From: Tetraselmis striata
Lineage: Eukaryota; Chlorophyta; Chlorodendrophyceae; Chlorodendrales; Chlorodendraceae
Length of the DNA: 64,000 bases
Direction: 5' to 3'
Assembly: GCA_006384855.1 (NCBI GenBank)
Contig: VCJN01003362.1
Location: 1-64,000 of the forward strand
Part shown: positions 6,692-54,218 of the stretch, one piece after another
How the letters are laid out: each line of letters opens with the position of its first letter
Numbering within the stretch: the stretch's first letter is position 1
Made by a program: the position numbers and the translations under genes
The notes under the pieces: model-generated
Databases searched by the model: none
Seen by the model: the letters and a program-made list of their open reading frames with translations, nothing else
Told to the model about the DNA's origin: nothing

Positions 6692-9600
6692 TCAGCCCTT
6701 CTGCGGCTTCCCGTGCCGCGCCGCCGTCGCCGCCGCCGCCGCCTCGTGGCGCTTCTGCATGAGCGCCGCCATCTGCGCCTGCGCGTGCTGGTACGCCTTC
6801 ATGCTCGCCGGCAGCGCGTGCTGGCCGGGCGGCGCCTGCGCGCTGTTGCCGTTTTTGAGCCAGTTCTTGAAGCAGTAGTCGGAGGAGCCGCGCGCCAGGC
6901 ACTTGGTGTCCACCTGCGCAAACGCACCACCAGGGAAGGGGGGACCATAGGGGAAGGGACCGCTGGTTGAAACCGTACACCAGTGCAGAACAATATATCA
7001 CATATACAAAAGTAACAAATCCCATATGCATACAGGTGCCGGCGCACATATAAGAATCATCAGCAAAAGCCTCAAATTGGGCTTGCATGCCACCTATAAG
7101 ACCATGCGCCATAGTTCCGCTATGGTTTCGCCTGAATTTGACTTCTGGCAGGGTGGGCAGGCTCTTGGTATTCACACTGTTCTCAGTACCGCGTCGGCGT
7201 CCGCACATGATCATATCATGCATATGTATACACATACGTACGCAGGTAGGACACACGGATGACCTCGTGTGGCATACGGTACCCGATTGCATGCCCTATA
7301 GATATATACACATATCTATACATATATCTATCATATACATATATCTATCTATGTCTCAAAGAGGCGGGATGGAGGTCGTGGATGTGATATGGCCGATGGA
7401 GGCAACCCTCGCCGCACGCCGAAGACGGCTCACAGGGCCCACGCTTCCAGTGAAGGAGGTAGTTGTCGGAAACGGTGACCACTCGCGGCATATGGGCATG
7501 GAGAATACTTAGCACCAGGCGCGGGCACTGCTGCCGGCGTGGCATACTAACAACAACGTGAATAAGAGCACCGCCCTGTCTGCCAGAGGTCAAATGTGGA
7601 CGAGACCATAGCGGAAGCATAGCTAATGTTCTCATGGGTGGCATGCAGGCCCAAATTTGAGGCCTCATAAGCGGTCTCATAGGTGCGTCCGCACCCGTCC
7701 ATACATGTCCGCACATGGGTGCTTGTGGCAGGTACGAGCGACCATAAGCATCCCAATGTCTGCGGGCGGGCGGGCGGGCGGGTCACCTCCGTGGCGGGCA
7801 GCTCCCCCTCCATCTTGCGCCACGCCTCCTCGCGCGCGCGCGCCTCCGGGTCCTCGATCTCCTCCAGCGGCACCTTGGCCGCCGCCATCGCCGCGAGCAG
7901 GTCGTGCTTGAGCTTCTGCGCCGCCGTCGTCGGCTTGGGCGTCGGCGGAGACCGCTCGCGGCGCCGGACGGGGCGGCCCCCCTGCGCGCCCTCTCTGCCC
8001 TTTCCCTCGCCGGCCGAGCTCGAGGCCTCCACCTCCGCCTCCGCCATTCTAACGTCCTCCCCGGAAGCGCCGGCAGCCTGGATAGTCTTGTTCGCCGACT
8101 GCCCTGATGCCTCTCCCTGCCCATCCCCCTCCAACTCCCCCATGCCACCACTGCCGCCGCCGCCGTCCTCGTCGCCCGCTCCCTCAACCTCCTCCCCCTC
8201 CTCCTCCCCTCCCCCTCCCCTGCCTCCTCCACCACCTTCTCCTCCCCCGCCTCCCCCTCCTCCTCCTCCTCCGCCTCCTGCCGATCGTCGTCCCGAGCGC
8301 CGCTCTCCTCCTCCACCTCCGCGGCGTTTCCTTCCTGCACAGCGCCGCCGCCCTTCGCCGCCTTTCCGACCTCCCTCACGCCAGCGCCGGCGTCCTTCCC
8401 GCTCGTGCCTCTCACCCCCTCCCCCTCAAGCCCAGCCTCCGCACCGCCGCGGACCGCCTTCGCTGTCTCCGCCTCACGCTCTGCCATCGCCGCCTTGCCT
8501 CCTTCCCGGCCAGCGCCGCCGTCCTCACCGCCGACAGCTCCCTCCTCGCCCGCCTCCTCCTCCTCCTCCTCCTCCTCCGCCTCCTCCGCCATGCCAGCGT
8601 CGCCATCCACATCCCCTGCGGCGCGCTCCTCCGCTCCCTCCCCCTCCTCCTCCGCCGCCTCCTCTTCCTCCTCCGCCCCAGCGCCGTCCTCCTCGGCCAG
8701 CTCCCCCGCCCCCTCGACAACGCCACGGCCCGCCCGCATGGCGCCGCCCGTCGCTCCGCCAGCGACCTCCAGGAAGGACTTGCGCACCCCACCGCCCTCT
8801 GCCTCCTCGCCTCCCGCCCGCCCCGCCGCCGCCTCCCCTTCCTCCTCCTGCCCCCCTTCCTCCTCTGTATTTCCTGCCTCGTCTGCCGCGGCTCCCCCGC
8901 CCGCATCCTCACTTTGCCCAGCTCGCTCCTCCGCGACCTCCTCCGCCACCGCCGCACCCGTCGACGCATCCGTCGACGCCCCGGCAGCTGCCGCCAGCCC
9001 CGCCTGCGCCTCGCCGCCGTGCGGCTCCTCTCCCGTCGCCCCGCCCTTCTCCTCCTCCTCCTCCGCCTTGCCACGCGGCGTCTTGTGGGACCCCTTGCGC
9101 CCCCGTGCGCTCTCCCTGCCGCCATCAAGATACACTCCCCATCAAATGACGCAACGTTCACAGCAGTATAAACGCCCCGCAGTCACCTTCCTCTTGCAGA
9201 CGACAAATGCCATGCATTCGACACAATGTTTTGCAATTGGAATGCACCATAGCTCAAACACAGAATCAGACCATTCCATTGTGTTGCGCTATCTAGTTAT
9301 TGATGGCACATGCATCAGAAATAATTCTTTGCGAAATGAGCATTTACCATGCCAATATACAGAAATGAATGTATATAAATGTATGCATATAGTATTGCGA
9401 TATAGATATATAATATTGCTTTCCTCCCGCCATACATGAAATTGCGCGCCCCCCCCCCCCCCCCCCCTCTGTCCCCGCCAATGCAAAACTACAATTGTGG
9501 CAACTATGTATCAGAGTTGTTCCAGTGGTTGGCTGTGGCCAGGGTAAGGGGGGACGGACAAGGCAAGGGGGGGGGGGGGGGGGGGGGGGAGCTCACCGGG

Positions 9601-10286
9601 CCTCTCCCTCCCAGCCCTCCACCAGCACGAGCGGGTCCACCAGCCGCGCCTGGTGCACGTCCGCGCCCACCAGGTCCATCGTCGCGCCCGTGGAGACCTT
9701 GCCGCGCGAGGGCAGCTCCACGCGGTTGCCGCTCTTGAGCGTGATCGTCTTGCCGCCTTTCTGCTTGCCGCGCTTCACGTTGCGCTCCACCTGCGGGGCG
9801 CAAACCCGCCGCCGCCCTGAGACCACGAGCTGGCTTGGCTCGCCACTGCAAGTTTCTGCCACGAGTAACAGTTTCTCGATCCTGCACCGTCGGCCGGCTC
9901 TTTGCCCGTCGCTCGGCCCGGCCTGGCTCGGCGCGGCCCGAGTATTTATTTCCTTTTCAAAACATTGGCACTGCAGCAGCACGGCGGGCGCCCACCGCGC
10001 GCAGCTCCTCCGCGTCCTCCACTGCCGTCAGCACCTCCTCGATGCGGCTGTTGGCGGAGCGGTCGTAGCTGGCCCTCTTGCGCTCCTCCGGGCTGAGCTC
10101 CGCCCAGCTGCGCGCCTCGGGCGCCGGCTCGGCTGGCCCGCCGCCTCCGCCGGCCTGCCGCCGCGTGTCGGAGCCGCGCTCGGGTAAGTAAGGCCCCGAC
10201 GAGCGACAGCCAGGGGCGTGCACTCTAGGAGTAGGAAAAACATCGCTGCTCCGAAACCATTGCTGCTCCGAAACCATCGCTAACAT
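6692..10286 (-). CDS. Unrecognised acidic Glu/Ala-rich protein, four exons
   Basis: Proposed exons (minus strand) are 10286-9996, 9790-9597, 9115-7787 and 6913-6692. Junction phases are 0 (GCG|GTGGGC to CCCGCAG|GTG), 2 (CG|GTGAGC to GGCAG|G) and 0 (GAG|GTGACC to TTGCGCAG|GTG). Exon 1 includes a helical segment (SPEERKRASYDRSANSRIEE). Exon 2 is basic and probably folded (KGGKTITLKSGNRVELPS). Exon 3 is mostly poly-Glu/Ala/Gly, then AAQKLKHDLLAAMAAAKVPL. Exon 4 contains CLARGSSDYCFKNWLKNGN and ends KPQKG. Exon 3 does not stay in one frame: the upstream acidic part and the downstream KLKHDLL part differ by one frame around 8150-8230, inside a GGGAGG-rich stretch, so a small indel, an assembly error or a short intron must lie there. 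No family recognised; the acidic tract suggests a nuclear or chromatin role, but that is a guess. Confidence 0.6.
7030..7740. repeat. Inverted pair of the dispersed ~150-bp repeat (MITE-like), in an intron
   Basis: The arms at about 7035-7210 and 7540-7705 are inverted copies of one unit: the left arm reads 'gcctcaaattgggcttgcatgccacc', the right arm its reverse complement with changes. Each arm includes the family hallmark 'gacctctggcagggtgggcagg' or its complement. The loop holds a TATC/TATA microsatellite (about 7298-7351). The whole sits in the last intron of the acidic-protein gene. Long arms and a non-coding middle fit a non-autonomous foldback or MITE-type element. Confidence 0.65.
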
Positions 10287-10298
10287 TGGCGGCGGTGC

Positions 10299-10309
10299 CT
10301 ATTTAAACC
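10299..10309 (-). promoter_or_regulatory. TATA-like motif upstream of the acidic-protein gene
   Basis: On the minus strand the sequence GGTTTAAATAG lies about 13-23 bp before the proposed start codon at 10286. The spacing would give a very short 5' UTR, so the true start may be a later in-frame Met, or the motif may be fortuitous. Confidence 0.25.
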
Positions 10310-10517
10310 GCGGTGGACGGGCTTCTTGACGTCGAAATAAGATCGGTAACTCGGTGCTATTTATTCCCGGGGGCCCCTGTCGGATGTACTGTCGGTGTTG
10401 GGTCCGGTTCGATGCTCCCGCTGGTCACGCCATTGGGCGCACGAACTACATATGCACGGCATGAGCTGGGAGGACACCACGGGCAGCCCTGTATCCATTG
10501 AGGGGCGCCGCTGAGCA

Positions 10518-13500
10518 CTAGCACAGTAGATAGGGGAAGCAGCGCCGTACCGCAACGGCGACGGTGCCATCGGCCCCCAGGCTGGCCCCGCTCCGCATGA
10601 ACCTCTCCTTCTTAGCCGTGGTGGTGTCCACCGTCGGCGGCTTGCCCTCCCCTTTGCGCTTCTTCTTCGTGCCGCCGCCGCCGCCCGCGTTGCTGTTGGC
10701 ACCGCTGCCTCCCCGGGGCGAGCCCACCGCCCCCGCGCCGGTGGCTGCCAAGGGGCCCGCCCTCCCGGCGGCATGCCCTCGGCTGGCGGCCTCCGTGGCC
10801 CTGGCCTTTGCAGCGGCCACCGACTGTGCCGTGGCGGCGGCCGCCTGGGCGCCGTGGCGGAGCCCGTGCGCCGCCGGCGCGGAGGCGCCGCCCCCCGGCT
10901 TGCTCCCCGGCTTGCCCTCCTTTGGCGACTTGCCGGGCAGGAGGCCGCCCAGCTTGGCGCTCCGGCCCAACACCGACGCAGAGGCGCTCACTGCAACCGC
11001 AGATAAGGGTGAAGGGGGGCAGGGAGTGTCAGTCGGCGCGACTGCATTCACATCTACGCTGGAGTCTATATATTCATATATACATGATACCGCATGTTGA
11101 ACAATAACAGAGTACGGGTGCCGACACGACTATAAGAACCCGATTCTCTGCTCTCAGAAATTGGGCGCTAGCGAATGTTCTTAATTCTTGCAATGATATC
11201 GTGATGTATTTGGTCTGAAATTGGACCAATAAGGGCACAGCAGGTTCTTACTCTTTTTGTTCTTATAGTCGGCTCAGCACCCGGAAATGATACCCTACAA
11301 CAGATATGATATGTATATGTACGTGACTACGTGTTCATTATATATGCAGAGATATGCAAGGAGAGTAGGAGGACAAGGAGATAAGGAAGAGATAAGTACA
11401 TCTGGGTGACAGTTTGGGGGGGGCATGGGGGAAGGGGGGGGGGGGGGCATGGAGGCGGCGCACCCACGCAGCCCGGCTTCTCGCACAGCCGCAGGAGGCC
11501 CTCCCGGTGGAAGGTGGCCAGCAGGTCGCCCTCCATCTTGAAGGAGTGGTGCGGGTGCGCGCGAAGCTCCGCGCTGTCGATGTAGTTGGAAAAGTAGTGG
11601 TACCTGCGGGCCCCGCCGACGATCAGGCAGCCCGGAAAGCGGGAGGAGGGGGCGGGGGCGGAGCGGGGGCGCACGGGTAGGAGGAAGAGGACGCGTCGCG
11701 GCTGATCTCGTGCGAGAAGCCGTAGACGGTGACGGAGCTGCACGCGCGCAGCGCCAGCATGACTGCCAGCAGGCCGGTGGAAGGGGCGAGGCCGCCCTTG
11801 TAGCCGGCGCCGCCTGGAGGCAGGGCATGACAGGATGCGCAGGGGGGGGGTGGAGGGGGGGTCAGCTGTTGGCGCTCAAGTGGCGGCAGCCCGTCTCGCC
11901 AGGCAACTCTAGAGCGGAGCAGTATGTCGCCGCACACCTAGAAACTACTGACTGCCCCAGATGCCATTGGTTGGTTCAGGCGGGGAGCGGAACAGCTGCG
12001 CAAGGACTGCACCGAGACGGCCCACTAGTTGCATGGATTGGCGAAGCGCCTCCTCGTGGACCTGGAGCTCCGGGGCTTCAACCCTTCAAACCCGTACGGC
12101 CTCATGCCGGCTACGAGTACTGGCAGAGCCGTTCCCGGGCACGGTGATGTGGTGTCTCCGCAAAGCGGTACAGCGGCTGACAAGGTACACATCCCCACAC
12201 GGCAACGGTGCCTCCGCCACCCACCAGCCAGCGCGGTGACTCTACCTGTAAATCATGCGGCCGGCCGTCCCCTGTAATCCGCCATTCTGCCCCCGCCTCC
12301 GCCACAGGCCACCCCCGGCCACGCGTGTGCAGGGCCGAAACGCACCTGCACCCTCCCGCCCGGCCGCCATCGCCTGCAGCACGCCGATGCGCGCTGTCTG
12401 CAGCCGGAACTTGTCCAGCGCGCGCCGCGCGTCCGACACCAGGCCGTTGGCCAGCAGCAGCACGCTCACGTCGCCACGCTGCTCCGCCAGCTTGGCGGCC
12501 AGCTGCGCCAGGTTGGCGGGCGAGATGCGGGTGGCGACCAGTGCGACGTTGCGCTGCGCAGCGTGCGGGCGGAGGGGGCGGGGCAAGCGGGTGAGGGAGG
12601 GGAGGTGGCGGCAGGGGCGGCGCTGCCGCCAGGCTGACTATCCGCCACCACAACGTAAAGCGCCATACATTGTCAGCTTGCCGTCAGCCGCCACTTACAA
12701 TAATCAAGCACTGCCACCATGCGGAAAACCAATCACCGACTGCCCGTCCCCCCCCCCCCCCCCGCCTTGCTATGCTAAATAGGATCACAAGGCAGCCCAT
12801 TGCGTCAACAACCAACAGCTCGGTATATGCATGGGGAGGAACGGGCGGGGGCCGGGGCGGGCGGGAGGGGGGGGGGGGGGGGACCTCCAGCTGCGCCACC
12901 AGCCGCTTCTCGTGTGCGCCGCCGAGGTAGCCTTGCCCCCACACGCTGTTCAGCACACGCAGCGTCGTGCCGCGCCCCACGTCGGCCTCGTACCCACGCG
13001 TGGGCGCCTGCCACCAAGCCCATGCCAAAAGACAAGGCATTAGAGGGCGGAAGGAGGAGGGGGGGGAGAAGGGGGAGGAGGAGGTTGGGGGGGGGGGGGG
13101 GGGGAGGTCATCCTGCAATTGCCCCCGGCAGCCATTCACTCGTTCAGTTCCAAACGAGTGACTAGAGGGCGTGCCATTCCGCATGGCATCCCTGGTATGC
13201 GCAGGGGACCTCTTCCGTTGAGGCTACGCCATGCTGTCCGCGAGCCTCACTCACGGCTGCCGACACAGGGAGCTTCCCCTGACCCATCCCCCCCCCCCCC
13301 CCTTGTACTTTGCTTACGCGTGGCGCAGGAGGTTCTACGTGGGCGCCATGCTTCCCTTTGGCATACCTGTGCGAGCCGACTAGCCAACCAGGGACACACG
13401 GGGGCCGCATGCACGCCACGACCTCCGTCTGCTCAACCAGCCGCAAGCCCGCCCCCATCATCACACCCGCCACCGCTTGCCAGGGCCGGTGCCCCAGCCT

Positions 13501-14996
13501 GTCCCATCGATCATGACATGGAGTGGGCGGGGGGGGGGGGGGGGGGGGGGGGCAGCACTTGGTTGACGCGTAGCACTGCGTCATGCGCATCCACCGCCTT
13601 GCCGAAGCCACTGCCTGAGAGGATGCCCGAGTTGCCCACCACCGCGCAGCTCTCGTACCGGTACCTGCGGGGGAGGAGGGTCGTGGGGGGAAAGGGGGGG
13701 GGGGGGGGGGGGTGATCAACCACCCGGAACCTGGGATAGCACCTTTGGCATTGGGGGCAGGGCGCAGGGAGGGTAAACGCAGAGATGGGAGGAGTCCAGA
13801 GGGTCCAGGGGCAGGGGCCGCACCGTGAGGTGTCCGCCGGCAGCCAAGGCGCCAGCAGCGAGACGTTGGCGAGGTTGGAGCCAAAGGTGCGGCGGCCCTC
13901 CGCCTCGCTGGCGAACCCGAGCGCCGACGCCGTGGCAAAGGCAACGCCATCGCCTAGTCGGAGCCGCCGTAGGCACAGGCGCCCTGCAGTCAGCGATAGC
14001 TTCCAACCAATGCCGCGCCCCCACAAGCGCCCCTTCCCTCTGGACCCAAGGCCCAATGCTTCCGCCCACACGCCACGCACCAGCCACCGCCGCCCGGAGC
14101 GCCGCGACGGTGCTGGCCACACAGGCGTCCACGCTGCCGCAGCTCTCTGCAGCCAGCTGCTTCCCCAGCCGCGTCAGCTCCGCATTGCGCCGCAAGTGGA
14201 AGCCCTCCACCTCCTCCGGTGTCAGCACCCGCTTGCGGCTCAGCTTGCGCACCTGAGCCCGGCAAGGCCGGCCCCCGCGGGAGGCGCTCAGCCTCGCTGC
14301 GGTCCCCCCCCCCCCCCCCCCCCCCCTTCTCAAAACCTCCGCCGCTCCTATCGCCCGCCAGCCCGCGCTGCAGGCCGCACCTCCCCCGTCGCCTTGTCCT
14401 TCACCTTGAGCGCCTCCGCCTCCATCTCCCGCCGCATATCCGAGCTCAACCGAGCCCGCTCCAGCGCAAAAACCTGAGGCGCAGCGCTCGCCACTCACCG
14501 CTCGCCCAAAGCCGTGCCCGCAGACAGCGCCCCAATGAGCAGTCCCACCCTTGGGGGGGGGGGGGGGGGGGGGGGGGGGGCGGGGGGGGCTCCGAGCGCT
14601 GCCCTCCTCGGCGCCCCACCTGCCGCCCGGCCTCGTCCAGACTCGCCGCCAGGAGGCCCGGCAGCAGGGCGTCGCCGCCGGAGGAGGTCATCGTAGAGCC
14701 GACCTCCAGTGCAGGCCGCCCTGCCTGTCCTGCCGTGCCTGCGATTCCCCCCCGCCCCCCCCGACAGCAGCGAGTGGTCAACTTTGTGGGGGCCCGCATG
14801 GTCGGCGGGGGGAGGGGCGAGGGAAGACAGGGGGATGCGCTCGGCTCTGACCTGCCGCCGCGCCCTCGTCTGCCCCGCCGGCGTCGCGCCCACGGTGCAG
14901 CCCTTCCATAAGCTGCTGCAGCACGAAGAGCGCGCCCAGCCAGAGGGCGGCGCCGACCGCCAGCCAGCGCGCGGTGCTGAAGCGGCGGCGCGCCAT
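10518..14996 (-). CDS. GT29 sialyltransferase-like type II membrane protein, 11 exons
   Basis: Exons (minus) are 14996-14852, 14720-14620, 14473-14381, 14252-14081, 13953-13824, 13664-13559, 13007-12885, 12553-12346, 11813-11675, 11603-11464 and 10990-10518. All ten junctions keep phase and total 1830 nt (609 residues). Residues 1-30 form a type II signal anchor ([18 protein letters not shown]). Sialyl motif L starts at C220 ([20 protein letters not shown]), then NQ and [11 protein letters not shown] across an intron. Motif S is at 365-388 ([20 protein letters not shown]), motif III is YHYF at 407-410, and motif VS is H425 to E430 (HSFKME). GT29 enzymes transfer sialic acid or a related sugar from CMP donors in the Golgi. 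Residues about 453-609 are an Ala/Gly/Lys-rich tail not typical of the family. The intron 11674-11604 is only 71 bp. Donor and acceptor substrates cannot be read from sequence. Confidence 0.92.
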
Positions 14997-15599
14997 CGCG
15001 CTATGTTCGGTCGGCAGCGATACCCAGGCAATACTAATAAAACCCAACAATCTTTACACGAGTACCATCAGTAGCAGCCGGCGCGCAAGAGTAGCAGCTC
15101 AGGGCGCTGTCATGAGAGGCCTCTGCCTGTAAACTGCTCAAGCCGGCGAGGCCCTCCTTCACTGGTCCTACTTGCAGGTCGGCTAGCGTAAGACCCAGCC
15201 TCTAGCCGCCGCACCTCCAGACTTGGCGGGACCCGTCTCCCGGAAATGGTCTTTTTCGCCGACGTCGGAGCTGTGTTGGCACCGTGCCAGTGTAGCAGTG
15301 GCGGCGAAATATTAAATTTTGGAAGGGGCGGCACGACCGCGCGCGTCGCGCGCTCTCCGCTTAACGGCGCGGCGCGTTACGAACAATTGAACTAATTATT
15401 GCAACGCATCCGGACAGCTTTTCCGACAACTGAACCAGCTGAAGAAGCGTTGCCCTCCAACGGGCATACAACCACAGGATCGACGGAAGAGGGAGATCAA
15501 GCGACACCATGTCAAGGTGTAGTGGGCTGCGGGGGTCACGGGAGCCTCGGCTATCCCACTACAAATACTTAGGAGGTCTGCAAGATCCGGCTCAGTTCT
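14997..15599. other. Intergenic region upstream of the GT29 gene
   Basis: It lies between the minus-strand GT29 start and the retroelement nest. No coding frame of natural composition and no RNA gene was recognised. The boundary of the DIRS-like relic on the right is uncertain by a few hundred bases. Confidence 0.35.
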
Positions 15600-16835: not shown

Positions 16836-17139
16836 TTGTTGACAACTGAGGTCTGACAGTCAATGTGTTTGATATTACAATTCTACTGCGCTTAGCCGCT
16901 GCGGAGAAGCGCGCACTGGGGCGCGCGTACGATGACTAGATCAAGACCATGTGCGCGTTGTACGCACCACTAGATAGTAGCGCCAGTAGTCCTCCAGCTC
17001 CGGCTGCTCAGCCCTCATCAGTGAGGGGCTGCTAGCCTTGTAATCACTTCTTCGGTCTCACCTAGCAGAGCCTCCGGCACCTAGTGCACCTACCACCACC
17101 TGCGACTCAGGCGGGACGCACCAGGTTATGCGCATGACA
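16836..17139 (+). repeat. 5' LTR of the copia element
   Basis: About 304 bp, TG...CA bounded, about 97-98% identical to 22629-22931. It interrupts a gag-like frame of the host DIRS-like relic. A conventional tRNA primer-binding site was not obvious just downstream. Confidence 0.9.
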
Positions 17140-20100: not shown

Positions 20101-22628
20101 ACTACACCAACAAACGGTGGCTCAGATACATGGAAAACAAGACTGCAGAGGAGGTGGGCAAGCAGCTGGCAGTGACCTTACGCAAAAATAAGTTCACTCA
20201 TCAGCGCCATCATGGGCACTTACCGTTTGCCCCGATGATGAAATTTGATCAAGATCCCACTTTCTGCGCTGAAAGCCTGCAGAACATGGTCACCGCCATG
20301 GGGTTTGGGGTGTACAATGGACAGCACCGCGTCAACATAACATGTTGGGAAAGGCGGAGCGGCCTTTCAGGACTCTCAGAGAGGCAGCATGTACCATGAC
20401 GCATGCAATGAATGTGCCCACTTGGATATGGACTCCGGCATTCTCCGCCGCCAACTGGGTGCATGAGCGCACCTACTCCCGAGCTGTTGGACCTGGAGGC
20501 GGCATCCCATGTCAACTAGAGGCGGGACAGGCAGCCGATGTTAGCGCTGCCAGAGTATTTGGATGCGCGGCATTTGTGAAAATTCCGGATGATCAACGCA
20601 GCAAAATGGATGTTAAGGCATTCAAAGGGGTAATGGTCGGCTATGCTGAGGACTCAATTGGGTACAAGGTGTACAATCCCACCACTGGCAGCATCATCAA
20701 CACGGTCCATGTGCGCTTTGACGAGCACACACCTGGATTTGGGGGGTCCGCACCATTTGCGGCGGTGCGTCTGGAATCTGAAGAGGACTCCGATGGGGGA
20801 TCCGATGTGCCAGTGCTCTCGGATGCATCCCCAGATGAGTTAGATTCAGTGAGGGATACGGAGCCATCACTTGGGAGGGCACCTGGAGATGCTGCACCTG
20901 ACAGACCGGTGCGAGATCGACGCCCGCCTACGCGATTCTGCGATCAGTTTCAAGCTATGCTATATGCTGCTGGGGACGACAGAGCACTGATTGCTAAGGC
21001 ACACCTGTCAAATGGCAATGTGGTTGCACTCTTGGCCGCCAGTGACGTCCTTGAACCAGGCACCTACAAAGAGGCAGTCAGTGGTCCCAACGCCAAGGAG
21101 TGGCTGCAAGGCATAGCCAAAGAGTACAGTGCTCAAGTGGCTAATGGCACATGGGACGTAGATCTGGTGGCACTTCCACCCGACAGAAAGCGGTCAACTG
21201 CAAGTGGGTGTTTAAAGTCAAACTGACTCTAATGGCGAGGTTGCAAAATTCAAAGCCAGACTTGTGGCTAAGGGTTGCAGTCAAAAGGCCGGTATTGACT
21301 TCACAGAGACATTCTCACCTGTGATTCGACAGACCAGTCTCCGGGTTATGCTCACCATCGCTGCGGCCCTCGACATGGAACTATACCAACTAGATGTGGA
21401 CACGGCGTTCCTTCATTCCGATTCGGATGAAGAGGTATACCTGAGGGATTCCATTATGGCACAAAGCGGGTACTCAGACTGAGAAAGTCGCTATATGGCC
21501 TCAAGCAACCCCCTCGGAATCGGAACAAACTGATCAGTGGGTGGCTGCTACAGACCGGGTGGAAGCAGTGCAGTAAAGATCCAAGTCTGTACTACTGCTA
21601 CCAAGATGGAGTATTTTCTATGTTGGGGATGTACGTGGATGATATGCCCTTTGCGTCGAACTCTGTGGAGTGGGCTACCCACTTCAAGCAGCAGATCAGT
21701 CAGCGCTTCCAGATTACCGTCACGGATTTGCAATGGCTTCTGGGCATGCACATTGCCAGGGACATAGCCAAGCAATCGGACTATCACCATAGATCAGTCG
21801 AAATACATTGGCGACATTCTTCGTCAGTTTGGAATGGAGGACTGCTACCCCTCTGCACTCCCCATGGACACTTACTACAAGAATCACCTTCCTGATTTAG
21901 CGCCGCCGTCACCTGCACTTGGAGTGCAGGGTCGTGAAACTTACCGGTCCTTGATGGGCGGCCTCCTGTATGTCGGCTGCAACACCAGACCTGACATCAG
22001 TGTTGCTCTCAGCATTCTGGGCCAGGTGCAGAAAGCACCATGTCAGATGCACCTGACTGCTCTGAAAAAAGTCCTCCGTTATCTCAAAGGCAAGCAGTCA
22101 CATAGCCTCACCTTGGGGGGGGTCACCAGCCAGTCTGCAGCTCACATGCTATGCGGATGCTGACCATGCTGGGGATTTGGAATCTCGCCGCTCCAGGTCT
22201 GGCTACCTCTTATTTCTAGGTGATCACGGCGCTGTTAGCTGGAAATCCAGACTTCAGCTAGTCGTGTCCACCTCTCCTTGTGAGGCAGAGTATTACTCTC
22301 TCAGCCTCGCTGTGGAGGATGCCCTACTGGTGGGAGAGCTGCTTGATCGGGATACAACCAGCGTGTCAGCCGAGCCGGTCTACATCCATCAAGACAATCA
22401 GAGCACCATCAAATACTGTCACAATTCCATCGTCAGTGACAAGACTAAGCACATCGACATCAGATATCATTTTGTCAAGGAAAGAATTCTCTGGGGCACA
22501 ATCCAGATCGGATACCTGCCCACATCTGAGATGGTTGCAGACATGCTCACCAAACCACTTCCCAGGGAGGCCGTGCACAGACATGCGCGCAAGGCTCTGG
22601 GCTGGGGGGCTGCAGCATTGAGTGGGGG

Positions 22629-40280: not shown

Positions 40281-40334
<54 letters not shown>

Positions 40335-44389: not shown

Positions 44390-46685
44390 TCCAGGCAGCA
44401 CATCAGCGGCGGCTACTGTGTGATTTTTGGTTCAGGAGCAAGTATGCACAACCATAATTTTGCAGCTTTGCGCCGAGATAGTGTTGAAGAGGCCGCCCCA
44501 TGCCATGCCGAGGCTGATCGATGATGCGCTTGAGGTTATCGTCACTGACACTCAGATTGCTGCTACCTTGGCCTTCAAAGGACGACTCACATGCCACCGC
44601 GGCGTAACCGGTCATATGCGAATTTATCATGAACTAGAGCCTTGAAACCATCGGTAGTCAACGCAGGTAAGTGCCATAACTACCGATGCACGAGTTGCAA
44701 CTACGGGACGCAGACAAGGCTCAAGGAGTCAAGGGTGACGTGCCCGCGCTACTGCTTCGCAATTTATGGTTTCAAGGCAGATAGACACAACCAATTACCA
44801 ATAATTTACGGCGCGCCCACGGCTGTTCAGGAACGTTCCATGCCATGCCATGCCGCGGCTGATCAGCAATGCGCTTGAGCGTCTCATCACTCATTCATGG
44901 CTCGTTGGACCTCGGGGGGGGGGGACATGCAAGCACGGGCACGCCGGCCCTATGCGGATTCAGAATGGCGTCAGGTTGGTGCCACGACTACCGATGCACG
45001 AGCTGCAGGTAGGGTAGGACGCAGATCGGGCTGAACAGTGAGCTGCCGGCACCTCAGCGGCGGCGATGCAATTGGTGGTTTCGGAGCAAACAAGCACCAC
45101 CAAGGCTTTGCGGTGCGCCCCGCGAGGAGCTGTGCGGTGCCATGCGATGTCGCGGCCGGTTGTCGACGCGACTGAGGGTCTCTTCACTTACTTTCATGGC
45201 TTTTTGGAACTCGAGGGCGACATGCAACATGGACACGCCGGCCCTATGCGGATTCAGAGTGGCGTCAGGTTGGTGCTACGACTACCGATGCACGAGCTGC
45301 AGGTAGGGTAGGGCGCAGATAGGGCTGAACAGTGAGCTGCCGGCACCTTGGCGGCGGCGATGCAATTGATGGTTTCGGAGCAAATAAACGCCACCAAAAC
45401 TTTGCGGTGCGCCCCGCGAGGAGCTGTGCGGTGCCATGCGATGCCGCGGCCGATTGTCGACGCGACTGAGGGTCTCATCACTTGCATTCATGGCTCGTTG
45501 GACCTCGGGGGCGACATGCAAGCACGGGCACGCCGGCCCTATGCGGATTCATAATGGCGTCGGGTTGGTGCTACGACTACTAATGCACGAGCAGCATGTA
45601 GGGTAGGGCGCAGATCGGGCTGAGCAGTGAGCTGCCGGCACCTCAGTGGCCGCGATGCAATTGATGGTTTCGGAGCAAACAAGCACCACCAAGGCTTTGC
45701 GGTGCGCCCCGCGAGGAGCTGTGCGGTGCCATGCGATGCCGCGGCCGGTTGTCGACGCGACTGAGGGTCTCATCACTTGCATTCATGGCTCGTTGGACCT
45801 CGGGGGCGACATGCAAGCACGGGCACGCCGGCCCTATGCGGATTCAGAATGGCGTCAGGTTGGTGCCAGGACCACCGATGCACAAGCTGCAGGTAGGGTA
45901 GGGCGCAGATCGGGCTGAGCAGTGAGCTGCCGGCACCTCAGTGGCCGCGATGCAATTGATGGTTTCGGAGCAAACAAGCACCACCAAGGCTTTGCGGTGC
46001 GCCCCGCGAGGAGCTGTGCGGTGCCATGCGATGTCGCGATCGGTTGTCGACGCGACTGAGGGTCTCATCACTTGCATTCATGGCTCGTTGGACCTCGGGG
46101 GCGACATGCAAGCACGCGCACGCCGGCCCTATGCGGATTCAGAATGGCGTCAGGTTGGTGCCAGGACCACCGATGCACGAGATGCAGGTAGGGTAGGGCG
46201 CAGATAGGGCTGAGCAGTGAGCTGCCGGCACCTCGGCGGCGGCGATGCATTGATGGTTTCGGAGCAAATAAACGCCACCAGCACTATGCGGTGCGCCCCG
46301 CGAGGAGCTGTGCGGTGCCATGCGATGTCGCGATCGGTTGTCGACGCGACTGATGGTCTCATCACTTGCATTCATGGCTCGTTGGACCTCGGGGGCGACA
46401 TGCAACCACGCGCACGCCGGCCCTATGCGGATTCAGAATGGCGTCAGGTTGGTGCCAGGACTACCGATGCACGAGATGCAGGTAGGGTAGGGCGCAGATA
46501 GGGCTGAGCAGTGAGCTGCCGGCACCTTGGCGGCGGCGATGCAATTGATGGTTTCGGAGCAAATAAACGCCACCAGGACTATGCGGTGCGCCCCGCGAGG
46601 AGCTGTGCGGTGCCATGCGATGTCGCGATCGGTTGTCGACGCGACTGATGGTCTCATCACTTGCATTCATGGCTCGTTGGACTTC
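44390..46685. repeat. ~295-bp tandem satellite array
   Basis: The phrase 'atgcaattgatggtttcgg' (or a one-base variant) recurs at 45066, 45360, 45655, 45950, 46245 and 46539, a spacing of 294-295 bp. 'gctcgttggacctcgg' marks the same period from about 44898 to 46680. At least six well-conserved units are present, with more diverged units upstream from about 44390. Each unit carries a minus-strand and a plus-strand open frame of 75-95 codons, but 295 is not a multiple of 3, so no frame runs through the array and coding is unlikely. The array ends abruptly at about 46685. Confidence 0.93.
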
Positions 46686-46761
46686 AAATAAAGGACGACA
46701 TACAGCAGGGCCACTAGCCGACCCCGTGCGGGGATCATCAAGTCGGGCCGTATTAAGACAG

Positions 46762-47013
46762 CTAGCCCGCGGTATTGCCCAGGAAGAACTTGTAGTCGGC
46801 GCTGGAGCCCCCCCCCCCTCCCCTCCCCCTTCAGGCGGCACCCCCTTTGCGGGGCGGGAGCTGCGTTCTTCGGCTCGCTCACCGCGCCGCCCGCCGAGCT
46901 CCGCCCGCGCCGGGCGGCCCCTCCGGCGGCGCGAGGCTGCCCAGCACATTCATCACCTGCCCAGGGGCGCAAACAAGGGCGGCGATCAGCAGAGGCAGAA
47001 ACAGCGCGAGCAT
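46762..47013 (-). CDS. Possible tiny membrane or secreted protein, two exons
   Basis: Exon 1 is 47013-46883, the donor is GCGCG|GTGAGC, the intron is 81 bp, the acceptor is CTCCAG|C, and exon 2 is 46801-46762. The phase-2 junction closes, giving 56 residues. It starts MLALFLPLLIAALVCAPGQV, a strong signal peptide or single transmembrane helix, and ends DYKFFLGNTAG. The frame also extends upstream through an amphipathic stretch (QIGLQISALESAVCRLQSLE), so exon 1 could be part of a longer exon beginning after an AG at about 47098. No family recognised. The intron has a C10 run on the plus strand (sense G). Confidence 0.3.
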
Positions 47014-47304
47014 ATTCCGGCTTTCAAGCGACTGCAGCCGGCAAACTGCGCTTTCCAACGCACTAATTTGCAGCCCAATCTGATAAAACGCTGAAATCTT
47101 ATGGTCTGTCAAGGTTACCCCCCTGTTCTGGTATCCCAGCCAGCCCACTCACTGTGGATGGGGGCGCATGATGGGGGCATGTAATGTGCTCTTCCACGCA
47201 AGCTCCCAGGCGCGAGGACCCCGTTGATAGGTCTCCACGTCGCGCGGACCCCGTCATCATTTTGGCTTTTCCCTTTGGATGATGGGTGACATGTGTGACA
47301 ACAT

Positions 47305-47587
47305 GCGCACAGACCCGTGCCGCAGTGGCACATCCCTTGTCCGCTTGTTTGAGCGGTCGTCTCGTACGCGAGAGGTCCGGGTATCGATTCCTGGCCGATG
47401 TATTTCGGCAAAATCGGCCCGGCGTGTCCCGGGTTTTCTCGGTTGATGCATTAGCCCTTCGGGGTTCGAATGAGGCAATGGTCTACTGGCTATGCCAGAC
47501 CTACGACTGCAGTTGGCGCGAGAGGTCAAGTGCTGGGGCGGCTTCGGCGGATATCCCGGGGCAAACTTTACTTTACTTTACTTTACC
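47305..47587 (+). mobile_element. tRNA-derived SINE-like element
   Basis: The head resembles a tRNA with an A-box-like TTGTTTGAGCGG (about 47345-47356) and a B-box-like GGTATCGATTCC (about 47380-47391), separated by a self-complementary TCTCGTACGCGAGA. A ~170-nt body follows, then a (CTTTA)4 tail at 47566-47585. This layout, a pol III promoter head, an unrelated body and a short simple-repeat tail, is that of a tRNA-derived SINE. No second full copy was noticed in this window. Confidence 0.5.
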
Positions 47588-47759
47588 CCCCAAGAAAGCA
47601 TCAATGCCGACGACCATTTCAGTACCCAAGCACAGTATCTGAGCGCATTTGGTGCTATCTGATGTCCACTGATGTTGCTTTACATCAGTAGTTAGGCACT
47701 TTACATCGAGTCTGCTCGGGGGGGGGCGCTTGAAAACCGGAATATGTACACCCCCATGT

Positions 47760-48215
47760 TCAATGTGTTCTACGGGTAGCAACGGACCCATGAGAAGCCT
47801 CGAATCGGGCTGGCATGCAGCCCATGAGAGAATTCGCCACTGTTCCGCTAAAGCTTCGTCCGAAGCTGACCACCGGCAGGGTGGGCGGGCTCTTAGTCGC
47901 AGTGGTCTTATACCACCGCGTTGGCACCTGTAGTAGATACCTCTCCTACCGCGCGGCCAGGTTCCTCCTTGACAAAACGCTGAAGGGCCGATCTTGGTGC
48001 CTGCACGTATATACAACGGGGTGCCGCCGCGGTAGTAACCAAAAACAGTACGAGTGAGACCCTGCCCGCCCGGCGAGGGACCACATCGGGACGCAACTAC
48101 AGCGGGACGATGGCTATTGTTATTTTTTACATCATGGCTAATGTTATCATTCGGGACTATGGAGGCCGGATTTGAGGCTCTGAAAAAGGGCTCCAATAGA
48201 TACGTGGGCACCCGC
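47760..48215. repeat. Inverted pair of the dispersed ~150-bp repeat
   Basis: The forward arm is at about 47795-47935 (hallmark 'accggcagggtgggcgggctct'). The reverse arm is at about 48055-48215 ('cctgcccgcccggcgaggga', ending 'ggatttgaggctct'). Together they form a foldback unit downstream of EMC10. The C27 homopolymer at 48236-48262 follows directly. Confidence 0.6.
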
Positions 48216-48609
48216 AGGATGATCACACCACAACTCCCCCCCCCCCCCCCCCCCCCCCCCCCACAACAGCCCCAACGCGTCCGGTGTGGAATCGAGAGCT
48301 AGGGCGGAGGTGAAACAGCCGAGGCGACATCCGCCTCGAAAGCGCAACACTTGCCACCGGGCAGCGTAAGTTCGCATTTTCACTCGTACGCTAGCGGTAG
48401 AAACTGCAGCCTGCAGTTAAGCTACTGCACTGCAGCCTGCAGTACTTCCCGAAAAGGGGCTGCCGTGCAGTTACCCAAAGTGCCCCAAATGTATGCCCTT
48501 CACTGTCCCGCGCTTCCCTATAATCAGCAGCTTCAGTGCTACTGCAGCCTGCACTGCAGCCTGCAGCACTGGAAAGTGGACGGCAGCCCGACCCTGGTAG
48601 AAACCTCAG

Positions 48610-49135
48610 AGCCCCCCACCGTACGTGTGCCGACGCACCTGAACAGAGCCTGATTACAAAGTAGCCTCAACCTGGGCGCGCGTGCCACCTGTGAGAATAT
48701 GCGCTATGTTTCCGCTACCGTCTCGTCAATATTTGACCTCTGGCTAGCAGGGCGGGTTCTTGTTCGCAGGGTCTGTATTACTGCGTCGACACCCTGGCCT
48801 AAACCCCTGCGCAGGGCACCTGGCCACCGCTGGACGCGCAGTAGTAAGCACGCCGCCCACCTGGCAGCCCGGCAACATGCCACGCGCTGAGGGGTGCTCC
48901 CATTGACCCGCTATTATCAAAGTACGCGCGCCGACGCACCTAACAGAACTCTAACTGCCAGTAGCCTCTAACGAGGCATTGCATGTCACCTACGAGAAAA
49001 GTCGCTATGGTTCCGCCACGGTTTTGTGTATATTTGGGCTCTGATAGGCAGCAGGGCGGGGCGGTTTAGGGTTTAAACCCTAAAAACCCTAAAACCCGTC
49101 CGCAGTGTTACTAGTACCGCGCCGGCAGCCGTATC
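48610..49135 (+). repeat. Two forward copies of the dispersed ~150-bp repeat
   Basis: Copies lie at about 48615-48800 and 48935-49135. Both contain 'gcctc', then 'tgccacctgtgagaatatgcgctatg' or a variant, then 'gacctctggctagcagggcggg' or 'gctctgataggcagcagggcgg'. The order is direct rather than inverted. The second copy has a telomere-like 'aaccctaaaaaccctaaaac' insertion. Confidence 0.55.
49069..49102. repeat. Short interstitial telomere-like repeat
   Basis: Mixed TTTAGGG/CCCTAAA units occur in both directions ('gtttagggtttaaaccctaa', then 'aaccctaaaacccg'). Plant-type telomeres use TTTAGGG and some green algae TTTTAGGG; this tiny head-to-head patch could be a repair scar or chance. Confidence 0.5.
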
Positions 49136-49222
49136 TATAGTCGAAGCATGTATAGACATCACGATTGCCACAGCGGGGGTAGAGGTGCCAAGGGGGCGGG
49201 GGGGGGGGGGGGGGGGGCGCAC

Positions 49223-50471
49223 CAGCATGCCCCCAAAGACCAGCAGCATCCAGTTGCGCTCCATGAACGACTTGGGCTCCTCCTTGCCCTTCCGCTTGCG
49301 CTGCCCGTCCTCCGAGAGCTCCCCCTCTGCGAGTCGCATTCCAGCCGCATGCATTCAGCCTCCCCATCGGTCGGCGTCCACGATGTCGTCCGTGTCAGGA
49401 TGCACCGGGTCAAGCTAGACTCTAGGGCTAAACCAGGTTTCACTAACCAAATTGAGGGTGATAAAAACTTGATGCCTAAGATGAAACCCTAAGCCCCCCC
49501 CCCCCCCCCCCCCCGCGCCCCCCCCCCATCCACCTCACCCCTGAGATGAAAACTCTGAGGCCCCACCCCCCCCCCCCCCCACGGGAGGGCTCAAACAGGG
49601 CGCAAAGTGTTAAAGACCCTAGCTAGTAACACCTTCCAGTCTCAACGTTAAGAACTCAATGCAAACGTATGCACAATATGCCTGGATCCTAGGCGCATAG
49701 CTTTAGGGTCTGACAGTATCACAGTTTCATGCTGTAAAGTACAACATCAAGCCCTAGAGCCCTATCATAACCCTAATTTCTTCGAGAAGGGGGCCCCAGC
49801 TGCCTGCCGCCCCCCCGGCTACCCACGCAGTCGGCCGGCGCCACCTAGCATTCTAGCCGCCACTGCACGCAACCGGTCGGCACCACCTGGCCGCCACTGC
49901 ACCCTATGCCCGGTCGCTTCCGCGGCGAGGGGGTGGCGGGGGGGGGGGGGGGAGGAGTTCACCGCCCGCTTCCTCCAGGTCGTACAGCGCCTCCGCCGCC
50001 GCGGCGTCCTTCAGCTGCGGCTTGGGCACGTCCACCACGGGCGCGGGCGCCGCCTTGCGCACTGCCACCTCCACCACGGGCGCGAAGGCCCACGAGGCCG
50101 GGAGGTCCGCCGGCAGGCCGGGGCGGCAGGGCGGCCTGCGCCGCGCCGCAGCGAGGAGCAGCACCCCCTCAGCGCGCTGTCCCCGCTGGCAGGCAGGGCG
50201 GACAGCTCTCACCCCCCCCCCCCCCCCCCCCCCAATGCGCCACAAACAAATGGACTGTGCGGGAGGGCAGGGGTAAAGAGGTGAGAAAAGGGGGGCGCAC
50301 CCGCCCCCAAGGCCATAGTCCATCGAGAAGATACGCTCCGCGCTGTCCACATGGAGCACCAGCACCTCCTGCAGGCCGTGCAGCGGAAGGAAGTTGTGGC
50401 GGGGGGGGGGGGGGCAGGCTGAGGCGCCGCGCAAGCTCGGGCGACCTTTGCTGCGAACCACACGTGAAGCC

Positions 50472-50503
<32 letters not shown>

Positions 50504-53500
50504 CAGACAGACAGAGATGCGGAGAGAGACAGAGCGGGGCGGGCTCACGGGGGTGTGCGTGGCTGACGGGTATCATCACATGCAGTCAACATGTGACGAT
50601 CAGCATGTGTGCCGGGCCGGTGCTAACAACACTGCGAAAAAGAGCCCCGCCCTGCCTGCCAGAGGTCAACCGTAGACGAGACTAAAGCGGCACAATGGCA
50701 AATACTCTTATAGGCTGCATGCGACCCGGTTTGGGACTCATGCAATGGGTTTGTTTAGGCGCATCGGTTACCGTAGACGCGGCGCTCGGTAGCCGCTCCA
50801 GATGCATGCCCCAGGTCGTTACGGCCCCCGGCGCCCCTCTTGGAACCCACAACACGAGCCTCAAATTGGGAGCTGCCGCCAAACTGGGAACATTTGCTAC
50901 CTGTAGCAGCGCTACGGTTTGATCGGCCTCCAACCTTTGACAGGGCGGGCGGATGCGTATTCAAAGTGTTCCGATCACCGCGCCGGCACCCATGTTTACC
51001 ATAAACCTGAATGACTACGAAATGACTACCACTTGTTTTGCCATGATGCACATCCACTCCAACTGCTGTCCGGAAGGGGGGGGGGGGGGGTTGTGCGACC
51101 TCCCTTCTTGACCTGCATGCAGCCCCCCCAGCGCGCATTGTGTAGGGAGGCCAGGGTTAAGAAGGGGATGGTGGCGGTCGTGGTAGCTGCAGGCATGGGG
51201 TAAGAGAGGGGGGGGGGGGGGGGGGGAGGGGGGTCCCCACCTTGAAGCCGGCGTGCACGAGGCAGCGCGCGCGCACGGAGGCGACGACGTCGGACGCGGC
51301 GTCCAGCTTCTGCGCGGCGCCCGGCACCTTCACGCGGTAGAATCTACAGGGCAGATGCGCGGGTGGTGGTCAGTTATGCATTCGGCTCAGGTTGGGTTGG
51401 GTTGGGTGGGTGTTGGGGAGGCTAGGGCGCCTCCATGGGTTGTTAGGGTCGGATCAGCGTTGGAAGTAATCCGGAGTTTGAGAGACGCAACGCACACAGC
51501 GCATAAACATAATTACGTTGCGATACGGCTTAATTGCTGTACTTTGTTGTGTGACAATACATTTCAAAATTATGTCAAATTACGCCGTCGCAATCCACGC
51601 AAGTCACGGGATGCGGACAATATGGACCCAATGGACGGGGAGCTTGCGGCCGGGCGCGACTGGTCACCCCATCATGGGGTCATCGACGTCTATTAGGATG
51701 CATGTGCGGCAATGAGAATAGAAAAAAGAAAAGAATATAAAATGTCTTGATAACTTGGCAAAGTGCAGGTGGTTGTACGCGGAGCTCCCCGTGACGCTGC
51801 AGCCACGGCTCAGCCTCTGGCATGCCTGGCGAGCCAGGAACAAGCGCCCAATCGCGCCGTTCCATGGCGTCACGCGAGGATGACTACGTCGGAGCGGAAA
51901 CTACGCCTCTGACGGCGGGGGGGCAGACGCGGCATAACTTTAAGTAAGCGGCAAGTGCGTTGTGTCGGGGTCCCAACGACGCATTGCCGCCAGCCCTGGT
52001 TCCGGTGGCCCCAGCAGAAACTGCCAGGGTCAAGGGCCAGCGCTGCCGCCGCGCTCCCATTCAGAAGCAAGGAGACGCGGTCGATTTCCTCGGCTGACTT
52101 GGTGATGTGAGGTGAGGGTCGAGGTCGAGCTGGCGGGCTGCACCGGTGCCCGGAGCTGGACGGCACCCCTTCCCGGGCGGGACTCGTGCGCGCTGCGGCG
52201 GGCGGCGCTGGCTATTGGTCTGCCCGCGGCGGGTACCCGTGCCATCTGATGGGCTGCTCCGGCCGCAAAACTAATGGCAAATCAACTTGCGCCACCGAGT
52301 CGGAGATTCCGTGCCGCCTTGGCGGTGTGTGTGGAACGCTCTTATCAGCTGAATGCAAGCCCAGATTGAGGCTTACGGTAAGGGCTCCTATAGGTGCGTC
52401 GGTACCTGCTCATCTGGACATCAACGGGTGCCGACTCGCCCATTTAGGCTTTCAATGGGGGTGGTTATCTTTCGCGGTGTATGCGGATACGGGTGTGGGC
52501 GCGGTAGCGAGAGCACTGCGAGTAGGAACCCGCCCACCCTGCCAGGCCAAATCCAGACGAGACTAAACCGAACGCTCCTACAAGCTGCATGAAAGCCCAA
52601 TTTGAGGCGTATTGGAAGGGGTCTTATGGGTGCGCCCGTATTTCATCTGGACATCAACGGGTGTCGGCTCGCTCATAAGCTCCCCTATTGAGAGCCTCAA
52701 ATTGGGCTCGCATGCCACCTGTAAGAACATCCGCTATAGTCCCGCTGCAGCCTCGTATACATTTGACCTCTGGCAGGGTGGGCAGGCTCCTGTTCGCTGT
52801 GTTCTCATTACAGCGTCGGCGCCAGGGTTGCGCGGAAGCCGCCCTGGGAGGTTTTAAGTGAAGACGAAACTTACTTAGCGGAATTAAGCAGAACAGACTC
52901 CAGCCGGGATACTGAGGCTGGAGTGAAGGTATTCAGCAGGAATTAAGCCGGAAGCCCAGGGCTGAAGAGCGCCCAGACAAGCACAAGTGCCGCGAAGCGG
53001 TCGCCGCCACTGCACTGATGGCCTAGCCGGAATTTGGCTTAATCAATCCAGCTGGAAGTCAGACGGGAATAAAGTTCCTCAAGGGTTTCTTAAATAACCC
53101 TAAGTCAGAACCTCTGTCGGAAGTGCCGCGGCGGTGCGCAAGCCATTCCGCACAACCGTGGTGAGCACCCGTTGATTTCCCTTCTCCGCGAGGGGGTCCA
53201 AAACAATACTCCATAGCGAACCCGGCGTGTGATTATCGCAGGTGGGCAGGCTGTTTCAGGTGAGGGAGGGGCTGGTCCCCGTGGGCAAGGGGAAGGGGGA
53301 GGGGGGGGGGGGGGGGGGGGGCATTGCGGGCGCGCACCCGTCGTCGCGCACGAGGCGCTCGAACCCGGCGCGCTCCTCCTCGCTGAGCAGGGCCGCGCGA
53401 CAGGACGAGCCGCCCGGCGCGGCCCTTGGCCTGGCCGGCGCCCTGCTTGACGGTGAGTGAGCCGGCGCGCGAGAAGGAGCCGCCGCCGAGGTCGTGCTGC

Positions 53501-54127
53501 AGCTCCACGTTGAACGCGGCGGCCACGTGCAGCTGGGTGGGGGAGGAATGGGGGGGGGGGGGGGGGTCGCCAGGTCAGTGCTGATTCAACCGGAGCACAG
53601 TTGTGGCAAGGGATGTTCAGCCGGGACTCATGGGGACTCATGGGGTGGTATCAGGGCAGAGGACAAAGAGTTCAGCCCGAACTCAGCAGAGAAGCACGGG
53701 ATGCATCGTCAGAATTCAGGTTATAAACAGACTCATTCGGCCGGCGCCCCGTCCCCACCCCGTCCCGCCTCTCCACCACATCCACGGAGCGCCAAGGCGC
53801 ATCCCTGGAATGCCCTGGCGGTCTGTCAGTCACCCTCCACAGCGTGTGTGTTGGCGGGAGGTAGGTTGCCAGAGCTTAGCACGGACGCTAAGCGCTCAGA
53901 AGGGGCAGCCGAGCTGGGCGGGCGTGTATCGTGAGGGGGACGGGGGAATAGGGAGATGTGGTAAAGGAGGGGAGTAGGGAGAAGGTGGGAGGGGGACATA
54001 GGAGGGGCAATGGGGCGATAAATGAGGGGAAGTTAGGGGAAGATAGAGGGGGGATAAAGGGGATAATATTGGAGATAAGGGGAAAGAGGGCTAAGGGAGT
54101 GTTGGTGGGGGTAGGGAGGGGGTAAGG

Positions 54128-54171
<44 letters not shown>

Positions 54172-54218
54172 ACCAGAGGCAGCAGCGCGCATAGCGGCGC
54201 CACGAAACGGAGCGCCAT
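49223..54218 (-). CDS. EMC10: ER membrane protein complex subunit 10 (EMC10)
   Basis: Exons (minus) are 54218-54174 (signal peptide MALRFVAPLCALLPL), 53532-53338, 51343-51241, about 50400-50301, 50135-49963 and 49326-49223. Matching EMC10 features are: FNVELQHDLGGGSFSRAGSL, then LLSEEERAGFERLVRDDG, FYRVKVPG, VRARCLVHAGFK, LVLHVDSAERIFSMDYGLG, CRPGLPADLPASWAFAPVVE, and the C-terminal anchor KSFMERNWMLLVFGGMLV. The EMC inserts tail-anchored and multi-pass proteins into the ER membrane; EMC10 is a luminal beta-sandwich subunit with one C-terminal TM. Exon 2 needs one base fewer to stay in frame (LTVKQ and LSEEER are in different frames near 53395), so an indel or base-call error is likely. The exon 4 acceptor is obscured by a C14 run. 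The last exon or stop after 49223 is not resolved. Introns of up to about 2 kb hold inserted repeats. Confidence 0.85.
50470..50530. repeat. ACAG microsatellite
   Basis: About ten (CAGA)/(ACAG) units with a few interruptions, in an EMC10 intron. Confidence 0.9.
50610..50995. repeat. Inverted pair of the dispersed ~150-bp repeat, in an EMC10 intron
   Basis: The reverse arm is at about 50620-50745 ('gccctgcctgccagaggtcaac', 'gctgcatgcgacccg'). The forward arm is at about 50855-50990 ('gcctcaaattgggagctgcc', 'cctttgacagggcgggcgga', ending 'accgcgccggcacc'). The outer edges carry GTGCCGG/CCGGCAC ends. Confidence 0.6.
52350..52820. repeat. Cluster of dispersed ~150-bp repeat copies, in an EMC10 intron
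   Basis: A partial reverse copy is at about 52365-52440, a reverse copy at about 52510-52650 and a forward copy at about 52690-52815. Adjacent copies share an extra 'catctggacatcaacgggtg' block present twice (about 52411 and 52647), showing segmental duplication within the cluster. Confidence 0.6.

Follow-up and report, generated by a model that had tools for sequence, protein, structure and literature searches.

Three minus-strand genes in a 64-kb stretch of the green alga Tetraselmis striata (assembly GCA_006384855.1, contig VCJN01003362.1, positions 1 to 64,000; hereafter the window) carry long runs of C on the sense strand of their introns, shortly after the 5' splice site (the donor). 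One gene encodes a member of the sialyltransferase family GT29, one an acidic protein, and one EMC10. A sequence-only reading of the window had named ten such tracts, and all ten are present after the donors it assigned and, where it gave distances, at those distances. The gene finder described below agrees with that reading on eight of the ten donors. The identities of GT29 and EMC10 hold as well, as the hand-spliced proteins match PF00777 at 1.4e-38 and PF21203 at 1.1e-6, respectively. Distances are in nucleotides (nt), and the features are as follows.

11464..14996, minus strand: GT29 gene, exons read by hand; it may extend downstream
14553..14580, minus strand: sense C28, 39 nt into intron 14619-14474 (donor after 14620)
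14304..14326, minus strand: internal sense-G tract (G23), 54 nt into intron 14380-14253
13529..13552, minus strand: sense C24, from +7 of the intron beginning at 13558 (VNQ|GTGCTG; donor after 13559)
12867..12882, minus strand: sense C16, from +3 of the intron beginning at 12884 (LE|GT-C16; donor after 12885)
11434..11447, minus strand: sense C14, 16 nt into intron 11463-10991 (donor after 11464)
9567..9589, minus strand: sense C23, 7 nt into intron 9596-9116 of the acidic-protein gene (donor after 9597)
49223..54218, minus strand: EMC10 gene, exons read by hand; the gene model puts its end at 46762
54137..54168, minus strand: sense C32, 5 nt past the donor (exon 1 ends at 54174)
53550..53566, minus strand: sense C17, ending 17 nt upstream of an acceptor
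53301..53321, minus strand: sense C21, 16 nt into intron 53337-51344 (donor after 53338)
51208..51226, minus strand: sense C19, 14 nt into intron 51240-50369 (donor after 51241)
49938..49952, minus strand: sense C15, 10 nt into intron 49962-49327 (donor after 49963)
49198..49217, minus strand: sense C20, 5 nt into the intron beginning at 49222 (donor after 49223)

For two of these introns the gene finder picked another donor, 13594 for the C24 intron and 54985 for the C32 intron. We adopted the hand-read start at 13558, whose junction falls within the PF00777 match, and, for C32, the donor of the sequence-only reading. The acceptor of the C16 intron lies at 12623 in the gene model and at about 12.55 kb by hand, and the boundary between GT29 and the acidic-protein gene, which the gene model merges, is provisional. 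Exon 2 of EMC10 (window ~53.4 kb, minus strand) has an apparent one-base frame break that is either an assembly error or a real lesion.

Runs of G or C of at least 10 nt are far more frequent in the window than chance predicts. At a GC content of 58%, there are 20 such runs of G and 14 of C (34 in total), where an order-2 Markov model expects 0.37 and 0.20 (less than 1 together), and there is a single run of A and none of T. Thus, homopolymer growth here is restricted to G and C. The two bases differ in where they sit within introns. Among the 35 predicted introns of 60 to 2500 nt in the window, nine C-tracts of at least 10 nt start within 45 nt of the donor (1.6 expected under uniform placement), and no G-tract does so (1.4 expected). 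Sense-G tracts are nevertheless present further inside these introns (14304-14326, 13288-13302, 12748-12763, 9449-9467, 50212-50233 and 49494-49514, among others), as are C-tracts on the acceptor side, such as the one at 13694-13712 (minus strand), which sits closer to the acceptor. The plus-strand introns of the genes called GT31, F-box and methyltransferase had been described as lacking tracts of the donor-proximal kind. Ten predicted plus-strand introns (starting at 4105, 4691, 31775, 31998, 32321, 32534, 34711, 35960, 37016 and 38040) contain no run of at least 10, but the intron starting at 3114 holds a C14 and a C21, both distant from its donor.

Introns within and beyond the window were predicted with a small home-made gene finder trained on the window and on random loci of this genome (20 arbitrary stretches, 183 kb). 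The program penalizes C- and G-tracts of at least 10 nt in exons equally, recognizes GT donors only, merges neighboring genes, and allows a stop codon across a junction (as at locus L030). Genes scoring below 90 were dropped, leaving 10 of 19 in use, and introns were retained only if they measured at least 60 or 80 nt and at most 2500 nt (1000 nt in the helicase set). At least three donors were miscalled, in GT29, in EMC10 exon 1, and in the gene for eIF4A-III. A held-out set was built from exons of DEAD-box helicases, which were found by protein family (39 matches) irrespective of tracts. Five 8-kb stretches were taken, chosen for matches split over exons, and were excluded from training.

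Enrichment of C-runs near donors is general. In a pooled set of 178 predicted introns of 80 to 2500 nt, 34 of them from the window, runs of at least five C start at 13.1 per kb over +4-15, 9.7 over +16-30, and 8.3 over +31-45, and then at 3.1, 3.6 and 2.8 in the bins beyond. Runs of at least five G start at 1.9, 1.1 and 1.9 per kb in the same first bins, followed by 1.6, 3.8 and 4.3. A near-donor C-run of this length is found in 55 of the 178 introns, and a G-run in 10; outside the window, the figures are 44 and 9 of 144. The share of introns with such a C-run varies by locus from 0/5 (L021) to 8/15 (L025) and 8/16 (L033). The helicase introns behave likewise. Within the first 45 nt of 55 introns of 80 to 1000 nt, runs of at least four C occur in 35 and of at least four G in 7, with 19 against 3 for runs of at least five and 7 against 1 for runs of at least ten; at +46 to +90 (n = 46), the C and G counts are 16 and 11, 8 and 5, and 1 and 1. 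For long tracts, 125 introns of up to 2500 nt, including those of the window, have 20 C-tracts of at least 10 nt within 45 nt of the donor (6.6 expected under uniform placement) and three G-tracts (3.4 expected). Over 120 introns (60 to 2500 nt), all of 20,000 uniform placements stayed below 20, and permutation of the C and G labels yielded a P value of 0.011. We conclude that tracts near donors are not confined to the three minus-strand genes.

Alignment to known proteins bears on several of these donors. Three of the helicase genes are close relatives of DDX3, eIF4A-III and DDX46 by alignment, and loci L030 and L033 were called helicases on the Pfam DEAD match alone; a structure-library search with the L033 helicase returned no match at the strict limit of 1e-90. 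The DDX46 alignment runs for 295 residues without a gap across the junction of an intron that reads CAG|GTG-C24, which supports a donor whose Cs would start at +4. In DDX3, the junctions after residues 349 and 520 lie in gap-free alignment, and the junction with C11 (after residue 479) adjoins a two-residue gap. Alignment of the eIF4A-III gene (locus L031) shows that the gene finder skipped ten residues; thus, the real intron would start GCAAGC and its C21 would lie at about +6 of a GC donor. This is probably a GC-AG intron.

The near-donor element is specific to C. Runs of at least eight pyrimidines without C5 occur at 3.1, 3.4, 3.4, 4.3, 4.1 and 2.4 per kb over successive bins from +7 to +130, and runs of at least four T at 1.3, 1.5, 3.4, 1.2, 2.3 and 3.3. 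The scarcity of G-runs near donors could, however, be the primary fact. The first 45 nt might shun G-runs and GT words, as competing donors or because of structure, with C simply left over. As such avoidance would have it, GGT stands at 3.8 per kb in +7-15 and at 15.7 per kb in +91-130, GTG at 7.5 and 23.6 per kb, and the observed/expected ratio of GT climbs from 0.69 to 0.96. Nevertheless, AC, which is no donor word, is equally depleted near donors (0.73, rising to 1.0), and shunning of G would not predict runs of C over mixed pyrimidines. We disfavor avoidance of decoy donors and regard it as quite improbable.

Word counts across the whole assembly (224 Mb, 2903 contigs) point the same way as the predicted introns. 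These counts are free of gene models, cover the plus strand, include non-donor occurrences of each word, and are read here as one count per word, which is our interpretation of the search output. The sequence-only reading had staked its claim on a genome-wide excess of sense C over sense G near donors, and the excess is present. In the 20 nt after AGGTGCG, C14 occurs 536 times and G14 156 times; after AGGTGAG, the counts are 218 and 142. At 100-120 nt, the counts for AGGTGCG are 228 and 183, a change in C:G ratio with P = 4e-14. The reversed word GCGTGGA is followed by C14 45 times. Because AGGTGCG outnumbers GCGTGGA about two to one (43 against 21 occurrences in the random loci, both strands), the excess of C14 over the reversed word is about sixfold once corrected. 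The bin at 21-41 nt was set aside, as the count for the word itself (350) includes tracts starting before 21 nt and one control was out of line: TCCACGC is followed by G14 296 times in that bin, against 81 at 0-20 nt and 108 at 100-120 nt, perhaps owing to a repeat family. C14 precedes AGGTGCG 30 times, a count that is confounded because exons lie 5' of donors. The acceptor pattern C14 then TGCAGG occurs 303 times but lacks a matched control and is not used as evidence. Motif counts made without annotation around 87 tracts of at least 12 nt in the random loci gave no clear donor enrichment, probably because most of these tracts are nongenic, and the order of neighboring tracts showed no clear asymmetry (26 C-then-G and 22 G-then-C pairs, including the window).

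Long tracts appear to be the tail of a population of shorter runs. Near donors, runs of 4 have a C:G ratio of 34:11, those of 5-6 one of 30:4, those of 7-9 one of 4:1, and those of at least 10 one of 20:3. As short C-runs have about the same bias as long tracts, the latter resemble the slippage-expanded tail of a C-rich element at the 5' end of the intron. Preferential expansion at donors, another of the options raised by the sequence-only reading, was borne out in part. The ratio of long to short C-runs is higher near donors than in mid-intron (20:68 against 12:167; P = 0.0004), and that of G-runs is 3:16 against 10:156 (P = 0.14); near donors, however, the ratio is alike for C and G (P = 0.76). 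Thus, the strand bias resides in the short runs and not in their expansion. Tract lengths in duplicated copies are 22/23 and 29/19 where both flanks match and 19/25, 11/33 and 39/26 where one flank matches, and two pairs of similar introns have 18 against 22 and 19 against 23 Cs. Unequal copies show, in part, that tract length changes readily. We note that a duplication several kb long is common to L011 and L014, and that its C-tracts occupy corresponding places but are of unequal lengths.

Slippage acting on C-rich intron ends without any function is a serious rival, if a somewhat unlikely one. On this account, mutation or composition makes the 5' ends of introns rich in C, for instance by spread from a GTGCGC consensus, and slippage enlarges the runs. 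The donor consensus is itself C-rich (C at 52% at +4 and 53-55% at +6), tract lengths differ between duplicated copies and similar introns, and C-runs are unlinked to donor strength, all of which a neutral origin would explain. A strand-wide mutational bias, however, should neither drop near +45 nor bring scarcity of G-runs within the same 45 nt. Moreover, an excess of C near donors remains when runs of at least 7 are masked, with C/G ratios of 1.96, 1.63 and 1.41 over +7 to +25, +26 to +45, and +46 to +80 in the helicase introns and 1.36, 1.25 and 1.04 in the other intron set.

On balance, we lean toward a functional element, and think it somewhat probable that a run of C on the sense strand in the first ~45 nt of the intron aids use of the 5' splice site and provides the seed that slippage expands into C10-C40. 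C-runs would be retained because they help the donor, as a pyrimidine tract close to the 5' splice site does elsewhere. A factor that prefers poly-C, of the KH/PCBP type, may bind the runs and assist the U1 small nuclear ribonucleoprotein (snRNP), and by analogy with known systems we infer that such a candidate C-reading factor is the likeliest function. Strong slippage of G and C homopolymers would then enlarge the seeds in a minority of introns. If a C-rich element is combined with general slippage, the long tracts are mostly by-products of a real element. The sequence-only reading had offered a role in intron definition, a class of inserted introns, or expansion at donors, and a role in intron definition is the best supported of the three, indirectly, through the position, strand and C-specificity of the runs, which extend to unselected genes.

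Precedents for such an element come from three papers. A polypyrimidine tract near the 5' splice site is reported in almost all of 22 eukaryotes, in ~20-40% of introns and centered at positions 15-25, and pyrimidine tracts 3' of donors work through TIA/Nam8-type proteins with U1C (PMC2766253). Like that tract, the element in T. striata is a pyrimidine element on the sense strand just 3' of the donor, enriched in the first tens of nucleotides (8-13 runs per kb to +45 and ~3 thereafter), and the share of introns with a run of at least five C near the donor (55 of 178) compares with the reported ~20-40%. In SMN2 intron 7, poly-C at position 10 promotes splicing of exon 7 as poly-U does, and more so with more Cs, with PCBP1/2 proposed as the readers (PMC8789036). 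PCBPs also enhance exons with C-rich flanks, and there the motif is mostly upstream of the exon (644 of 686 exons; 42 downstream only; PMC4797308). C-runs in T. striata adjoin a splice site as PCBP1/2 enhancers do, and runs of at least four C, the feature of those enhancers, lie close to the donor in 35 of the 55 helicase introns, as given above. Unlike PCBP enhancers, which are mostly on the acceptor side, the runs here are on the donor side, in many genes, and known from sequence. Among the titles listed by searches mostly outside subscription journals, none dealt with poly-C, cytosine-rich or homopolymer-bearing introns in algae.

Several observations weigh against a splicing role. No C5+ run is found in 123 of the 178 introns, and some genes have few (1/11 introns at L030 and 1/10 at L027). 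The random loci alone (85 introns) give a modest excess of long C-tracts (11 against 5.0 expected, with G at 3 against 2.1), so the window is above average in tract enrichment. Helicase introns keep a C/G ratio of 1.3-1.6 as far as the acceptor, such that the sharp drop near +45 is true of runs and less so of base composition. Unlike the U-rich element of other eukaryotes, the element here consists of pure C-runs, some reaching C10-C40, and mixed pyrimidine, T and purine runs are not enriched near donors. Donor strength, moreover, showed no relation to the presence of a C-run close by (36 introns that have one, 63 that lack it; P = 0.71), which disfavors rescue of weak donors; tract and donor strength are anticorrelated in most metazoans and in Arabidopsis and not in most fungi and protozoans, according to PMC2766253. 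As the U-rich composition and the relation to donor strength are both missing here, the element is grouped with the known one for its resemblance rather than as a member. Poly-C placed at position 15 in SMN2 suppressed splicing unless a flanking motif was broken, an effect that the authors ascribed to a GCACC motif (PMC8789036). Finally, the word counts have weaknesses. The excess after AGGTGAG is small, the reversed word was counted against C14 alone and not G14, and control words gave C14:G14 counts of 68:13 (TCCACTC) and 69:81 (TCCACGC), so local composition alone can skew such counts. Composition skew for the G-rich donor words, however, would favor G over C.

Two further explanations concern structure and origin. 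Introns bridged by complementary repeats are a known system, and some introns here carry both C- and G-tracts, so a C-tract near the donor might pair with a sense-G tract downstream and loop out the sequence between them. Of the 27 introns with a near C-tract of at least 10 nt, 9 have a G-tract of that length further on, as do 17 of the 151 introns lacking the near C-tract (P = 0.006; length-stratified, 0.016), and a further C-tract shows no such link (5/27 against 23/151). Genome-wide, however, AGGTGCG-C12 followed by G12 at 80 to 110 nt occurs 10 times (plus strand), against ~6-7 by a hand estimate for independence. Copies of a single locus make up at least two of these occurrences, and C..G pairs are in no clear excess in the single spacing bin examined. 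Moreover, the G-tracts are mostly distant from acceptors. We disfavor the hairpin as very improbable. The idea of an inserted intron class, in which C-tracts would be the terminal signature of introner-like mobile introns, draws on the recurrence, among the matches listed, of starts of the form GTGCGC followed by a C-run. When 1.3 kb of GT29 was compared with the whole genome, as a single query and with common words skipped, the matches other than the gene itself were all of 26-107 nt, most of them at homopolymers. Bases between AGGTGCG and the tract vary among the matches listed, and 3' ends of the introns are dissimilar. Insertion is accordingly disfavored too, and is the most remote of the explanations considered.

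If C-runs do aid the donor, a GC-rich lineage can recast a conserved pyrimidine signal near the 5' splice site as runs of pure C, and a splicing signal of this kind can be physically unstable. Gene prediction in GC-rich genomes would benefit, and natural alleles of tract length would allow a direct test of the effect on splicing. A bolder version of the splicing element, which we think a long shot, holds that a donor element specific to C-runs replaces the U-rich one, and even the donor consensus from +3/+4, with its fast-changing length serving as a gene-by-gene rheostat of intron removal.

Other features of the window lie apart from the C-tracts. A predicted exon at ~55022-55646 (plus strand), divergent from EMC10, appears by eye to encode ankyrin repeats and a membrane-spanning tail, and a minus-strand open reading frame that overlaps it (54699-55841) gave no Pfam match. 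A match to PF25597 (Retroviral polymerase SH3-like domain; 2.8e-24) at 20273-21226 (plus strand) suggests a retroelement, which we take to be of the Copia type. The plus-strand gene previously called a methyltransferase contains an open reading frame (3959-5023) that matches the zf-met zinc finger PF12874 at 2.7e-5.

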